The translations under genes were made by a program, and so were the position numbers. The notes below the pieces were generated by a model. It ran no database searches, was not told where the DNA came from, and saw nothing but the letters and a program-made list of their open reading frames with translations. Source: Rossellomorea aquimaris (lineage in GTDB: Bacteria > Bacillota > Bacilli > Bacillales > Bacillaceae_B). Taken from it: a stretch of 64,000 bases of DNA. The stretch lies in NCBI RefSeq assembly GCF_008180865.1, contig NZ_VTEX01000005.1, positions 62,001 through 126,000 on the forward strand. The letters run 5' to 3'. Shown piece by piece: positions 13,826 to 34,946 of the stretch (its first letter is position 1; each line of letters begins with the position of its first letter).

Positions 13826-14027
13826 CTATCCTGTTGCATTCATTACATTATTATGGACCAATAGACTATGGATTATTTCTAAAATAACACGAAGATACAA
13901 GGTTCTCAACAAGTTACTCGAAGGAAATGCTAAAGACGAAATAATCTATTAAATGGAAGCGTTTTAATTGTTAAAACCTTCAAAATACCGTCACAAAACT
14001 TTAATTTGATGGAAAATTAATGAAAAA

Positions 14028-14059
14028 GACTGACAAATGGTATTTCCTATTTGTCAGTC
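14028..14059 (-). terminator. Terminator of the accDA transcript
   Basis: A perfect 11-bp stem GACTGACAAAT (14028-14038 with 14049-14059), followed on the minus strand by TTTTTCATT, 9 nt after the accA stop. Confidence 0.9.
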
Positions 14060-14068
14060 CATAGTTCA

Positions 14069-15049
14069 TTATGATTTTACCCCAATTAAATCATTTAAAA
14101 CAGAATATTCACCCATCGCTTTAAATTTTTCATAGCGATGCTGTATCAATTCATCTTTCTTCATTGGGATTAATTCTTTCAAGGATGCCTTTAGTACATC
14201 ATTGATATATTGTGCTTGCTCTTCGACATCTTTATGAGCACCGCCTTTGACTTCCGTAACGATTTCATCAATGATTCCAAGCTCCTTCAAATCCGGTGCT
14301 GTGATCTTCATGGATTCAGCCGCACGTTTCGCTTGTGTAGAATCCTTCCACAGGATGGCTGCCGCCCCTTCAGGTGAAATTACGGAGTAAGTGGAGTTTT
14401 CAAGCATATGGATATGGTTTCCGACTCCCAGTGCCAGGGCACCCCCACTACCACCTTCACCGATGACCATGCAGATAACGGGAACGGTCAAGCCTGCCAT
14501 CTCTACAAGATTTCTTGCAATGGCTTCACTTTGCCCTCTTTCCTCTGCCGCTTTACCGGGATATGCCCCCTTTGTATCAATAAAGCAGATGATCGGTCGA
14601 TTGAACTTGTCCGCTTGCTTCATCAAGCGTAAGGCTTTTCGGTACCCTTCCGGATGAGGCATCCCAAAGTTCCGGCGAATATTTTCTTTTGTATCTTTCC
14701 CTCTTTGGTGGCCGATGATGGTCACCGGGACAGCATGAAATTTCCCTACGCCTGAAACAATGGCTTCGTCATCCCCATACAGACGGTCACCATGCATTTC
14801 GATGAAGTCCGTAAAGAGATAGCCGATATAATCAAGCGTCGTCGGGCGATTGGGATGTCGAGCTACCTGAACCCTTTCCCAAGGCTTCATGTTTTCATAG
14901 ATATCATTTTCAAGCTTCGTGAGCCTGCTCTCCAATTTCTCGATTTCATTTGATAAATCGACGTCTGAATTTTGAGTGAACTCCTTCAGCTCGGCTATTT
15001 TTTTCTTGAGCTCAAGTACAGGCTTTTCAAATTCCATCTCATTTACCAT
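14069..15049 (-). CDS. accA: Acetyl-CoA carboxylase, carboxyltransferase subunit alpha
   Basis: 326 residues. It forms, with AccD, the carboxyltransferase that moves CO2 from biotin to acetyl-CoA to give malonyl-CoA for fatty acid synthesis. The family motifs [33 protein letters not shown] and the oxyanion-forming [15 protein letters not shown] are present. ATG at 15049 overlaps the accD stop, so the two subunits are translationally coupled. The N-terminal 60 residues are a predicted coiled region, usual for AccA. Confidence 0.96.
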
Positions 15050-15912
15050 GGCAGATCACCGTCCCACTGATGTATATCAAGTACTGTCCCGATTTTCTCT
15101 TTTAACTCGAGCCTCGAGATGACTCCGTCAAGTTGACCATGCTTCAATAAAAATTCTGATGTTTGGAAGTCTTCCGGTAAGTCTTCCCTGATCGTCTGCT
15201 CAATGATCCTTCTGCCTGCGAAGCCAATAAGTGCACCCGGCTCAGCAAAATTATAATCCCCTACGGATGCGAAACTAGCGGATACCCCGCCTGTCGTTGG
15301 GTGCGTCATGATCGAGATGAAGAGTCCTCCATTTTCACTCAATCGATTAAGTGCCACACTGGTCTTGGCCATCTGCATCAAGGAAAGGACACCTTCCTGC
15401 ATTCTCGCGCCTCCAGATGCCGTGAAGATGATGAATGGGACTTTTCGCTTGTCGGCTTCTTCGATGGCTCTCGTAATTTTCTCTCCGACCACAGAGCCCA
15501 TACTTCCCATTCTGAAGCGTGAATCCATGATGGCCGTCACCACTTCGATTCCGTTTACCTTACCTGAACCAGTTAATACTGCTTCATTCATACCTGTCTT
15601 CTTCCGATCCTTTTCCACTTTTCCTTCATAATCAGGAAACCCCAGGGGATTCCCGGAAACAAGATCATGATCAAGCTCTTTAAAGGTACCTTCATCTATA
15701 AAACTATCGACTCTCTCTGGTGAGCTCATCCCATGATGGAATCCGCAATGAATGCACACCTTTAAGTTTTTTTGAAGTTCTTTCGTGTACATGATCTTTT
15801 TGCAATCAGGACATTTCGTCATGATGCCTTCTGGAACGTCGTGTTTAGCCGCTTCAGAAGGGATCGTTGCATATTTTTTCTTTTTGGATTTATTAAAAAG
15901 TTCCTTAAGCAA
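15043..15912 (-). CDS. accD: Acetyl-CoA carboxylase, carboxyltransferase subunit beta
   Basis: 289 residues. It has the N-terminal zinc ribbon C-x2-C ... C-x2-C (KCPDCKK and VCIHCGF, residues about 34-58) and the crotonase-like carboxyltransferase core with GARMQEG and [14 protein letters not shown]. It partners AccA. It starts at ATG 15912 after GGAGGTTTCACC-type Shine-Dalgarno. It is downstream of the malic enzyme and FadR-like regulator genes with a gap of about 160 nt to the latter. Confidence 0.96.
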
Positions 15913-16075
15913 GGTGAAACCTCCTTAACTAATTACAGTAGCTTATACGTCTTCTGAAGGAAAAAAATGAAGGTGATACAGCTTTAAAATCAATTTCCCA
16001 GGGACAGCTTCCGCTTTCATTTCTAGTAGTAAATGCACATATATAACTGCTTGACTATCAGTTTAATGGAAAGGT

Positions 16076-16735
16076 TTAAAAAAAGATGTTGGAAATTGTC
16101 GCATCATTATCGACAATTTCCCTGACCCTTTTATACTTCTCTTGCACAGTCTCTTTATCTTGGTTTTCTATTCCTTGAAGCATTCGGGTAATCTCTTCTC
16201 TCATTCGCTCCGTAATCTTGATTTCTCCACAAATCAATGTTTCAAAATCATTTAAGATATTCCAAATCCGTTGAGCCAAATGATTGGCATTCATCATCAC
16301 GATATCCCTGAACACATCATCCAGGTTTTCCGCTTCTGACACTTTCTCAAAAAGGGCATCCATCTTCTTTTTTTCTGAAAATAGATCTTTCAGCGCTTCT
16401 TTTTCAATCATCATTTTCGTATAAAGAATATCTTCCTGGGCTTTATGGTCCTCGAGGATGAACATTCCTAACAAATCGATGAGGTGATGATCCCGAAAGT
16501 CCCTTAAAAAGGTACCTTCGCCTCTTTTGGTTTCAATCAGGCCCAACAATTCCAATGCCCGTAATGCTTCCCTTACAGAAGAGCGCCCAACGTTCAATCG
16601 TTCGGACAGCTCTCTTTCAGAAGGGATCTTATCACCCGGCTTGAGGCCGTCTTTAGATATCATTTCTCGTAATTGGTGAACAATTCCAATATATACTTTA
16701 GCGTGGGAATGGAGAGAGTTCACTTCTGACATCAT
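16076..16735 (-). CDS. FadR-subfamily GntR transcriptional regulator
   Basis: 219 residues. The N-terminal winged helix carries the GntR signature PGDKIPSERELSERLNVGRSSVREALRALELLGLIETKRGEGTF (split here only for reading: residues about 34-78). The C-terminal helical domain (about 90-219) is of FCD type but short and divergent. Proteins like this sit between malic enzyme and accD in many bacilli. The gene overlaps the ytsJ stop by 4 nt, so it is coupled to malic enzyme. A FadR-type palindrome upstream of ytsJ is a good candidate for its operator. The effector is unknown; an acyl-CoA or organic acid would fit the context. Confidence 0.85.
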   Translation of the reverse strand: MMSEVNSLHSHAKVYIGIVHQLREMISKDGLKPGDKIPSERELSERLNVGRSSVREALRALELLGLIETKRGEGTFLRDFRDHHLIDLLGMFILEDHKAQEDILYTKMMIEKEALKDLFSEKKKMDALFEKVSEAENLDDVFRDIVMMNANHLAQRIWNILNDFETLICGEIKITERMREEITRMLQGIENQDKETVQEKYKRVREIVDNDATISNIFF

Positions 16736-17970
16736 TCACTCTTCCCGATTACCGCTAAATCTTCTGTCTTTTTGCGAATATCTTCCGGATCCACCTTTAA
16801 ACGTGCCACTCCCGTCTCCATGGCGGCCTTTGCGACTGCAGCTGCAACAGCAGGTGCTACACGCTTATCAAATGGTGCAGGGATGACGTAATCCTCATTC
16901 AACTCGTCTTCTCCGATTAAAGCCGCAATCGCTTCAACAGCAGCTTGTTTCATCTTCTCATTGATATGAGTGGCGCGAACATCCAGTGCCCCACGGAAAA
17001 TACCAGGGAATGCAAGGACATTATTTACCTGATTAGGAAAATCGGATCGACCGGTTCCAACCACTTTTGCTCCAGCCGCTTTTGCCAACTGAGGCATAAT
17101 TTCAGGCACAGGATTGGCCATAGCGAAGATAATCGGGTCCTGTTTCATAGAGGCCACCATTTCTTCTGTTAACGCTCCTGCAACAGAAACACCGATGAAT
17201 ACGTCTGCATCTTTTAGTACTTCTGTCAGTCCACCTTTGATCTGATCACGATTCGTAAACTTGGCTACTTCGTCCTTGATTCCATTCATTCCTTCGGGAC
17301 GACCTTCGTAAATCGCTCCCTTGGAATCACACATAATGATGTCTCTCACACCATAACGGTAAAGAAGCTTAATAATCGCCATGCCCGCGGCACCGGCTCC
17401 ATTTGCCACTACTTTGATTTCTGACATCTTCTTCCCAACAATCTTGAGCGCGTTCACCAGACCTGCCACAGTTACAATGGCTGTACCATGTTGATCATCA
17501 TGAAACACAGGGATATTGGTCTCTTTCTTCAAGCGCTCTTCGATTTCAAAGCAATTCGGAGCTGCTATGTCTTCTAAATTCACTCCGCCAAAGGTAGGCT
17601 CAAGAAGTTTAACGGTTTCTACAATCTTGTCCACATCCGTTGTGTTCAAACAGATTGGAAACGCATCAACACCGGCAAAGCTCTTGAATAGAACCGCTTT
17701 ACCTTCCATAACAGGCAAGGAAGCTTCCGGCCCTATATTTCCAAGACCTAAAACTGCCGTACCATCTGAAACAACGGCTACCATATTCCCTTTCATTGTG
17801 TAATCGTAAACCGTTTCAGGCTTGTCATAAATGACTTTACACGGTTCTGCCACCCCTGGGGAATAAGCCAGGCTCAGGTCTTCCGCATTCCGGACCTCCA
17901 CCTTGGATGTTGTTTCTAATTTCCCTTTGTTTACCCGATGCATATGCAGAGCTTCTTCACGCAATGACAA
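16732..17970 (-). CDS. ytsJ: NAD(P)-dependent malic enzyme
   Basis: 412 residues, the length of the short bacterial malic enzymes. It decarboxylates malate to pyruvate with reduction of NADP+ (B. subtilis YtsJ prefers NADP). Visible are AYSPGVAEPC, the metal-site segment EDIAAPNCFEIEERL with FHDDQHGTAIV, and the nucleotide-binding GAGAAGMAI. It starts at TTG 17970, with AAGGAG 8 nt upstream. It is the first gene of the ytsJ-gntR(-accD-accA) cluster, linking NADPH and pyruvate supply with fatty acid synthesis. Confidence 0.93.
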   Translation of the reverse strand: MSLREEALHMHRVNKGKLETTSKVEVRNAEDLSLAYSPGVAEPCKVIYDKPETVYDYTMKGNMVAVVSDGTAVLGLGNIGPEASLPVMEGKAVLFKSFAGVDAFPICLNTTDVDKIVETVKLLEPTFGGVNLEDIAAPNCFEIEERLKKETNIPVFHDDQHGTAIVTVAGLVNALKIVGKKMSEIKVVANGAGAAGMAIIKLLYRYGVRDIIMCDSKGAIYEGRPEGMNGIKDEVAKFTNRDQIKGGLTEVLKDADVFIGVSVAGALTEEMVASMKQDPIIFAMANPVPEIMPQLAKAAGAKVVGTGRSDFPNQVNNVLAFPGIFRGALDVRATHINEKMKQAAVEAIAALIGEDELNEDYVIPAPFDKRVAPAVAAAVAKAAMETGVARLKVDPEDIRKKTEDLAVIGKSE

Positions 17971-18072
17971 TCAACTCACTCCTTCTGTTTCTTTACATGC
18001 TATATGTCGATCCATGATTCACATAAATCTTCTAAATGTACATGATATATAGTGAAAAAAATAAAGTTATAG

Positions 18073-18089
18073 AGGTGGTCTGACCACCT
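18073..18089. promoter_or_regulatory. FadR-type palindromic operator upstream of ytsJ
   Basis: AGGTGGTCTGACCACCT is a perfect palindrome around a central T. Its core TGGTCNGACCA is the consensus core of E. coli FadR and close to other FadR-subfamily GntR sites. It lies about 100 nt upstream of ytsJ, whose operon encodes a FadR-subfamily regulator. It could instead be a short hairpin behind dnaE, but the T run is on the wrong side for that gene. Confidence 0.5.
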
Positions 18090-18134
18090 TTTTCTATTAA
18101 ACAATAATATAAATATTGGTTTTAGTAAAGTATG

Positions 18135-21100
18135 TTATTGTAATATGACATTTGCCTCACCCAGAACCTGCTGCATTTCCCTAAGAGCCTCTTGAGACGG
18201 GGACACACGTAAATGGTCCGGAAGCTGGACACTCTTTTTTTCACGTTCATAATAAACGATGACAGGATTCTCCCCTTTGAATCGGTTAATCGTTTGATGA
18301 ATACGCTGCGTACACGCCTCTTCATCCTGACCGACGGGAATTTTCAAATAGAGCTTTTGATCCACTGCTTTCACTCTCGCCTGCACTTCTTCCATCGCTT
18401 CCACCTGATTCACAATGAACTGAAGCTTATCGTTCCGTTCTTCAACATTTCCACCAAACAGGAGGATATTCCCTTCTTTTAGTCGAGTCATATTATTTCG
18501 ATAGACATTCGGAAACACCACCGCTTCGATCTCGCCACTTTCATCACCGATTTCAAGGAAGGCCATCACTTCCCCTTTTTTGGTCCGGATGGATTTCACT
18601 CCGGTAATATAACCGCCGAATGTGATTTTCGACCCCTTATGAAGATCGGCTATTTGCTGTAAGCCAAGATCATCATACAGGTGACGGTAGGATGAAACGG
18701 GATGGTCAGATAAGTAAAGACCCAGCACCTGCTTCTCGAATTGAAGCTTGATATCGATCGTCATATCCTCTACTTCGACATGCTTAGGCTTTAACAGGAA
18801 CGCTTCTTCCTCATGAAACAGATCGGGATCCCCTTCAGGGTTGACAAGTTCCGCATGCTGGGCCGCTACATCAAGGCTTGCAAGCAGCGTGGCACGGTCC
18901 ATTCCGAATTCATCGAACGCCCCAGACAATACTAAATTTTCGAGGATTTTCCGGTTAATCGTTTTGGAAGATACCCTCATGCAAACATCAAACAGGTCCT
19001 GAAATGGTTTTTCTTTTCTGGCACGGATGATTTCCTTTAAAGCAGCTGCCCCTATTCCTTTGATAGCCCCTAAGCTGTAACGGATTCTGTTCTTACTTTC
19101 TACCGTAAATACAAATTGACTCGTATTAATGGATGGGGGCAGGATCTCAATATCATAAAGCTTTGCTTCCCGGATATACTGAGCCACTTTCGTCTCATTT
19201 CCCACTACCGATGTCAGGAGGGATGATAAGAAAAAAGCAGGGTAATGTGCCTTTAAATAAGCCAATTGATAGGCGATCATACTATAGGCAACAGCATGGG
19301 ATCGGTTGAATCCATAATCTGCGAATCTGACAATCAAGTCATAAATGGTGTGCGCGACTTCTTCGGTATATCCTTTCCGTATTGAACCGGAAACAAAATG
19401 CTCCCGTTCCTGATCGAGGACATCCTTTTTCTTCTTCGAAACCGCTCTTCTGAGCAAATCTGCTTCCCCTAGGGAGAAACCGGCCATTTTCGAAGCAATT
19501 TGCATGATTTGTTCCTGATATACAATGACGCCGTAAGTCATTTCAAGAATCGGCTTTAAGTCAGGCAAAGGATAGTCCACCTTCTCCACGCCGTGCTTCC
19601 GTTTAATATACGTCGGGATGTTTTCCATTGGCCCCGGACGGTACAACGCGTTAACGGCCACAATATCTTCAAATGAATTAGGCTTCAGTCTTTTTAATAC
19701 ATTGCGCATTCCTTCTGATTCAAGTTGAAAAATCCCATTGGTCAGTCCTTTACTTAATAATTCAAAGGTTTTAGGATCATTCATGGGTATAGACTCAATG
19801 GAGAATGATTTATTGGTTCCCATTTGAACGTTCTTCACAATTCTTTCTAAAATACTTAGATTACGGAGTCCGAGGAAATCCATTTTCAACAAACCGATTT
19901 CTTCCAGTATATCCATAGAGAATTGAGTCAGATGGATTCCGGATGAACTTCCCTGGATGGGTACCCACTGCACTAACGGAGCTTCACTCATCACGACTCC
20001 CGCCGCATGGGTCGACGTGTGTCTTGGAAGTCCTTCAAGTTTAAGAGCCGTCTGAAATAATTTCTTATAATGATCAGAGCTCGTCACAAATTCGCGGAAT
20101 CCCTTAGACTTTTCATAGGCTTCCTGCAGTGTGATCCCCAACTGATTCGGGACAAGCTTGGATACTTGTTCCTGCTCCTTCATATTCAAGCCGAATACAC
20201 GACCTGTATCACGAAGGGCTGCCTTTGCTGCAAAGGTCCCGAACGTAATGATCTGGGCAACGTGAAGACTCCCATACTTCCCTTCCACATACTCGATCAC
20301 TTCGTCCCGTCGGTGATCGGGAAAATCGATATCAATATCCGGCATGGAAACCCGTTCAGGATTTAAAAATCGTTCAAACAGCAAATGATGTTCGATCGGA
20401 TCCACATCTGTAATCCTCAATGCGTAAGATACCAGGGAACCCGCTGCAGATCCCCTTCCCGGTCCAGTCAGGATCTTTCTTTCCTTGGCATACTTCATAA
20501 AATCCCAGACAATCAGGAAGTAATCGCTGAATCCCATCCTGCCGATGACTTCAAGCTCATAATCCAATCGTTCTATGTACTCATCGGAAACCGACTCTAC
20601 CCTTTCACTCAGGCCTTTCTCACAAAGGTGGGTCAATTCCTGAAGGGCTGATACTCCCTCAGGCAGAGTATATTTCGGGAGGAGCTGCTGATGGAAAGGG
20701 ATGGTCAGGTGACACTGATCGGCAATCTTCATCGTGTTTTCAAGCTCCGTTACATGATCAGAAAACAACTCCACCATCTGCTCTTTGGACTTGAAGTAGT
20801 ACTCCTGTGAACCTAATACGTCCCTGTCATCTTCAGACAGCTTCACACCGTCCCTGATCGCACCCATGCATTCATGGGCGAAATGATCTTCCTGGTCTAA
20901 ATACTGAACATCATTGGTAGCCACCATATCCGTTCCCGTCTCTTCAGCTACCTGCTGCAGCAAAGGAATAAGTGTATCTTCAGACGGAATCCCATGCTTT
21001 TGAAGGCTTAAGTAAAAGGAATTCCTGCCAAAGATCTGTTGATAGGTGTGGATGCATTCCTTTGCTTTTTCACTTTCATCATTCAATAACAGGTTCTCAA

Positions 21101-34919: not shown

Positions 34920-34946
34920 GACCTCCAGTGAGGCTCACTGGAGGTC
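34920..34946 (-). terminator. Terminator of the TetR-ABC operon
   Basis: A perfect 11-bp stem GACCTCCAGTG (34920-34930 with 34936-34946) and 5-nt loop, then TTTGATTACTTTTG on the minus strand. It lies 14 nt after the permease stop. Confidence 0.8.

Follow-up and report, generated by a model that had tools for sequence, protein, structure and literature searches.

The FadR subfamily of GntR regulators holds the closest described systems for the site analyzed here. E. coli FadR has half-sites of the TGGTC type, like the core at this locus. According to the available part of PMC4494728, operators of the subfamily follow the palindromic consensus TKGT-N3-ACMA; the same source tabulates the FadR residues that contact DNA and reports that an arginine at position 28, a serine at position 40, and a glycine at position 59 correlate with G/C at box positions 6/14. 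The accessible portion of PMC10272880 gives the box of E. coli LldR as AAnTGGTCnGACCAnTT, and that of PMC11734750 gives the operator of B. subtilis LutR, whose effector is L-lactate, as TCATCTGATGA. The excerpted text of PMC10433868 attributes expression of ytsJ in B. subtilis to PdnaE, P2, and P1.

The site described here lies between dnaE and ytsJ in a window of 64 kb, the whole stretch of DNA that was analyzed. Its conserved core, TGGT-CWG-ACCA, conforms to the subfamily consensus. Compared with the LldR box as printed in the part of the article available, the TGGTCnGACCA core is identical, but the flanks are AAn..nTT there and G..C here, and the neighboring genes here are ytsJ and accDA rather than lactate genes. 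The LutR operator, in the form in which the accessible text presents it, differs from the site at this locus. A survey of titles and abstract openings turned up no description of the regulator or of the ytsJ site; a listing in RegPrecise or in the supplement of PMC4494728 is possible. The palindrome is very probably a single, dedicated, autoregulatory operator for the product of gntR, the second gene downstream, and would serve to repress ytsJ-gntR until an effector lifts the repression. This reading assigns a target and an exact predicted site to a GntR regulator that is widespread, unnamed, and encoded between malic enzyme and acetyl-CoA carboxylase.

The palindrome and its gene neighborhood

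The genes lie on the minus strand in the order dnaE, palindrome, ytsJ (malic enzyme), gntR, accD, and accA. Pfam matches served to name ytsJ and gntR; dnaE, accD, and accA were named by eye from their translations. The features are as follows.

18073..18089, no strand assigned: 17-bp perfect palindrome AGGTGGTCTGACCACCT, the feature under study; pairs beyond the 13-mer vary in relatives
18075..18087, no strand assigned: predicted operator core GTGGTCWGACCAC, the conserved unit (36/36 genus genomes; 93/93 and 80/80 loci; 154 unique sites)
18124..18129, minus strand: predicted -35 element TTTACT for ytsJ, belonging to the top-scoring -35/-10 pair ahead of the operator (17-nt spacer)
18101..18106, minus strand: predicted -10 element TATTGT, the partner of TTTACT, 13 nt from the operator
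16732..17970, minus strand: ytsJ, encoding a malic enzyme of the NADP type (412 aa; start codon TTG), the gene nearest downstream of the operator
16076..16735, minus strand: gntR, FadR-subfamily GntR regulator, 219 aa, predicted operator binder (Pfam GntR, E=1.3e-19)
15043..15912, minus strand: accD, tied to the operator solely via possible read-through
14069..15049, minus strand: accA, recognized by eye from its translation

The preliminary description had placed a palindrome at 18073-18089, and AGGTGGTCTGACCACCT is found at exactly that position. The ytsJ and gntR open reading frames overlap by 4 bases, and the promoter-like pair starts 5 bases past the dnaE stop codon. Promoters were detected with our own -35/-10 score, and the start point follows from it: ytsJ transcription is expected to begin near 18094, so that the operator core would span roughly +8 to +20, a location suited to a repressor.

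By its frequency alone, the palindromic string is at chance level and not beyond. The segment TGGTCTGACCA (18076-18086) is the sole exact TGGTCNGACCA within the window, and allowing one mismatch gives 2 sites versus 1.17 expected. Odd-centered perfect palindromes of at least 8 pairs number 3 in the 64 kb, versus about 1.3 expected at 41% GC. Another perfect palindrome in the window, 27 bp in length, is GACCTCCAGTGAGGCTCACTGGAGGTC at 34920-34946. The organism's own genome contains 4 exact TGGTCNGACCA sites versus 2 for the reversed control pattern, and the 3 copies outside the window lie inside open reading frames (by eye, those of an FecCD-type permease, a YtaF-like protein, and a CcpA-like regulator). 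The 13-mer GTGGTCNGACCAC occurs once in this genome; at up to 2 mismatches it has 52 sites versus 89 for the control pattern.

Conservation of the site and its linkage to gntR

All 36 genomes of the genus have a gntR match, and all 36 contain the exact 13-mer GTGGTCNGACCAC, in single copy in 35 of them; the reversed control was found in 3/36. A second exact 13-mer is present in genome G025. Among the closer members of the genus the stretch from the -35 element to the operator is, by eye, almost invariant, whereas the bases to the right of the operator differ. At two loci of the genus (L105 and L106), repeat-like DNA lies between the operator and ytsJ, and the retained site is 397 and 522 nt from the gene.

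The site was also found well beyond the genus. A first comparison set joined the 36 genus genomes with 57 loci of other genera, hand-picked among the better gntR matches listed, and in 93/93 of these loci a site with 0 to 3 mismatches to the 13-mer stands between dnaE and ytsJ or gntR (76 exact, 15 with one mismatch, 1 with two, and 1 with three). The set of named loci, the best 80 of 583 and overlapping with the 93, has it in 80/80 cases (60 exact, 18 with one mismatch, and 2 with two). A more distant set began with 30 gntR matches, from which another GntR gene lying away from the locus (L143) was dropped; the site is present at 29/29 of the rest with 0 to 2 mismatches (two in L127, L137, and L142), in L122 and L124 only once a longer flank was included. 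For each relative the best match within a short region was counted as its site, a procedure biased toward apparent conservation, but at 20 dnaE-ytsJ-accD loci that lack gntR (L155, where the contig ends, was omitted) identical handling yielded best matches with 3 to 6 mismatches. Merging 172 of 173 sites, one with short context being omitted, left 154 unique sites. Eight of their 13 positions are invariant, and 153 sites have A or T at the center; one base beyond the 13-mer, conservation drops off.

Judged by this comparison of sequences, the site is far beyond chance, because of its conservation in relatives and not of its frequency. A palindrome that arose by chance and has no role would be compatible with the window and genome frequencies given above, but conservation at specific positions across many genera makes such an origin scarcely credible, and it was rejected. 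Phylogenetic footprinting, proposed earlier as a check, found the palindrome core at every examined locus that retains this gntR.

The predicted promoter accompanies the site. The best-scoring -35/-10 pair ends 6 to 19 nt before the operator in 154/154 unique sites, and the distance from the -10 element to the operator is 9 to 16 nt in 137/154, versus 30/154 after shuffling. The mean -35/-10 score is 10.3 across the unique sites and 8.3 for shuffled sequences, and the best -35 element is TTTACA or TTTACT in 129/154.

Alternatively, the hairpin might be no protein-binding site but an intrinsic terminator acting on dnaE or on an antisense transcript. The RNA can fold into a 9-bp stem, and a T-run follows it on the plus strand, but that strand is opposite to the one that carries dnaE and ytsJ. 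The folding of the 91-nt stretch does not stand out from that of shuffled versions (z = -1.19; 29/200 as good), and T-runs are unconserved, being present at 29/154 sites in the sense and 48/154 in the antisense direction. Pairs outside the 13-mer are not maintained in relatives, and changes within the core break pairing rather than restore it. The presence of the site tracks gntR, and the accessible part of PMC10433868 describes a bicistronic dnaE-ytsJ transcript in B. subtilis. The interval 14000-18400 has two weak hits in Rfam when the threshold is relaxed, both below their gathering scores and neither covering the palindrome. Termination of dnaE, which the preliminary description had named as the finding that would overturn an operator, was therefore rejected on a T-run that is unconserved and on the wrong strand and on the lack of covariation, and together with the folding data this leaves a terminator very unlikely.

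The linkage of the site to gntR is seen across the order, in which 107/135 sampled genera have a gntR match at E <= 1e-20. The exact 13-mer is present in 227/318 order genomes with such a match versus 1/79 without (Fisher p about 1e-33, a value that ignores the kinship of the genomes); these counts are not independent, because the genomes are related. The reversed control pattern matched in 29/397 order genomes by hand count. Among the 79 genomes without gntR, 20 were listed as such and the other 59 were derived as genomes absent from the positives; the lone one with the 13-mer is G238, a genome of 62% completeness whose locus shows no accD. Of the 318 genomes that match gntR, 91, some of which were examined, lack the exact 13-mer, and at least one near-threshold match (G277) is another GntR gene.

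The presence of the site follows gntR. A ytsJ match was found in 24 of the 26 gntR-less genomes searched, out of the 79, and the 20 gntR-less loci compared above come from these genomes. Where gntR is retained and ytsJ is absent from the locus, as at 2/93 loci of the first set (L079 and L083), 3/29 distant loci (L114, L117, and L127), and 9/80 named loci, the sets overlapping, the site stands before gntR. By eye, a site that looks decayed lies at the customary distance (15 nt) downstream of a preserved -10 element in two gntR-less loci (L144 and L146), and L148 perhaps has another, 20 nt from the -10.

The GntR protein and a proposed mechanism

The window protein has an N-terminal GntR winged helix-turn-helix (PF00392, E=1.3e-19; 70 bits versus a cut-off of 27), which resembles that of E. 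coli FadR and has matching contact residues. At the positions aligned with the DNA contacts of FadR, homologues show little or no variation: R41, R51, R55, and G72, which we aligned with FadR Arg35, Arg45, Arg49, and Gly66, are invariant in alignments A1 and A2. The first homologue alignment has 115 rows, including a 3-residue fragment from L102, with nine loci that lack a start codon left out; A2 covers 72 of the 80 named loci, L260 having no usable open reading frame. The published correlated positions 28/40/59 correspond, in our own alignment, to R41, S53, and G72.

By NCBIfam cut-offs, the protein is none of the fatty-acid FadR, LldR, and PdhR. The two NCBIfam models for fatty-acid FadR gave 32.8 bits versus a cut-off of 249.2 and 31.7 versus 189. 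Of the NCBIfam models, LldR matched the protein best, with 67.4 versus 311 bits, and PdhR gave 60.3 versus 330. The best PDB sequence match is the DNA-binding domain of B. subtilis LutR (PDB 8pqm), the comparison covering that domain. A group of fatty-acid genes carrying the site, as expected of FadR, was not seen, although accDA does lie downstream in the gene block; a wider regulon near lipid genes was likewise not found among the 3 exact TGGTCNGACCA sites that the genome has outside the window. Identity with the fatty-acid FadR is therefore not supported, the model cut-offs lying far above the scores and none of those 3 sites lying near lipid genes. The preliminary description had suggested a FadR-type operator and a search for further sites near lipid genes. 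A FadR-subfamily-type operator upstream of ytsJ, probably belonging to the gntR two genes on, is supported by the sequence comparisons; its core is that of the published LldR box as well, and the 3 other exact copies gave no further site near lipid genes.

The C-terminal part may be a domain of the FCD type. Pfam FCD does not match the window protein; it matches 11/34 aligned homologues, the best at 2e-26. A predicted structure (mean pLDDT 81, pTM 0.63) resembles the C-terminal fold of the TM0439 FCD regulator (3sxy and 3sxk), with Z 12.7 and rmsd 3.0 over 125 residues for the FCD domain, in a range where helical bundles with Z under about 13 may share arrangement only; Foldseek TM-scores, query-normalized, were 0.24 to 0.50 among the matches listed. 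Because the domain is a helical bundle, this likeness is support for an FCD-like fold in the model and not proof. The D..FH-like metal motif of TM0439 and other FCD proteins is absent from the window protein and was found in 12/114 homologues, one of which (L129) is doubtful. This motif is kept only in some distant families, where the operator core is unchanged.

In the mechanism that we propose, a GntR dimer would occupy GTGGTCWGACCAC, which would span about +8 to +20 relative to the ytsJ transcription start, and would block RNA polymerase. Malic enzyme and the regulator would then be repressed together, a form of negative autoregulation, until a metabolite, most likely a small carboxylate, bound the C-terminal FCD-type domain and lifted repression. 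A site behind the transcription start is compatible with repression but no proof of it. That an effector acts here is uncertain because the metal-binding residues of FCD domains are missing from this protein. We infer the binding itself, a negative sign of control, the effector, and transcription continuing into accDA.

The palindrome could also be an operator at which the GntR protein activates transcription or regulates it in both directions, or at which another FadR-subfamily paralogue binds. FadR-subfamily proteins include activators, and this genome has 11 matches to the GntR protein, itself counted. In addition, some relatives have a second copy of the site before accD, often after a terminator-like hairpin, an arrangement unlike that at ytsJ. 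However, a place behind the -10 element is typical of repression, and the site is missing from the examined loci without this gntR; because of that absence, another binder fits poorly. Activation or a different binder is thus improbable, though less so than a terminator.

The link to acetyl-CoA carboxylase

The proposal that one regulator governs malic enzyme and acetyl-CoA carboxylase held in part: the site precedes ytsJ-gntR, but accDA is tied to it only indirectly here, and a direct copy was found at 36/196 loci. The gap between gntR and accD in the window contains no second operator, the best match having 5 mismatches. The 36 loci, drawn from overlapping sets, have a second copy before accD with 0 to 2 mismatches, whereas in the same gap of the other 160 loci the best match has 4 to 7 mismatches (5.2 on average after shuffling). 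Second copies stand 59 to 327 nt before accD and are GTGGTCTGRCCAC-like, for example in L054-L058, L195, L211, L219, and L234; by eye, many lie behind a terminator-like hairpin. Named loci make up 30 of the 36, and Neobacillus, Mesobacillus, or Cytobacillus account for 18 of those 30. The link between malic enzyme and the carboxylase thus looks direct in some relatives and in the window would run only via possible read-through.

It is possible, and we offer this tentatively, that this regulator of central metabolism has one operator, a DNA site frozen over many genera, and a sensing domain that in most of the examined homologues is without the metal motif, with accDA captured via a second copy in some relatives. 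It might then act as a homeostat coupling malic-enzyme NADPH and pyruvate to malonyl-CoA, responding to a signal unlike the metal-bound carboxylate usual for FCD domains. The near-constancy of the site across many Bacillus-like bacteria points to a dedicated on/off switch by which malic enzyme would be coupled to the opening of fat synthesis, and the system offers a direct test of how NADPH and pyruvate supply is balanced against the first step of fatty acid synthesis.

On the minus strand, a promoter-like stretch at 16030-16085 lies over the 3' end of gntR and is, by eye, similar in relatives within the genus; because of this stretch, accD may have a promoter of its own.
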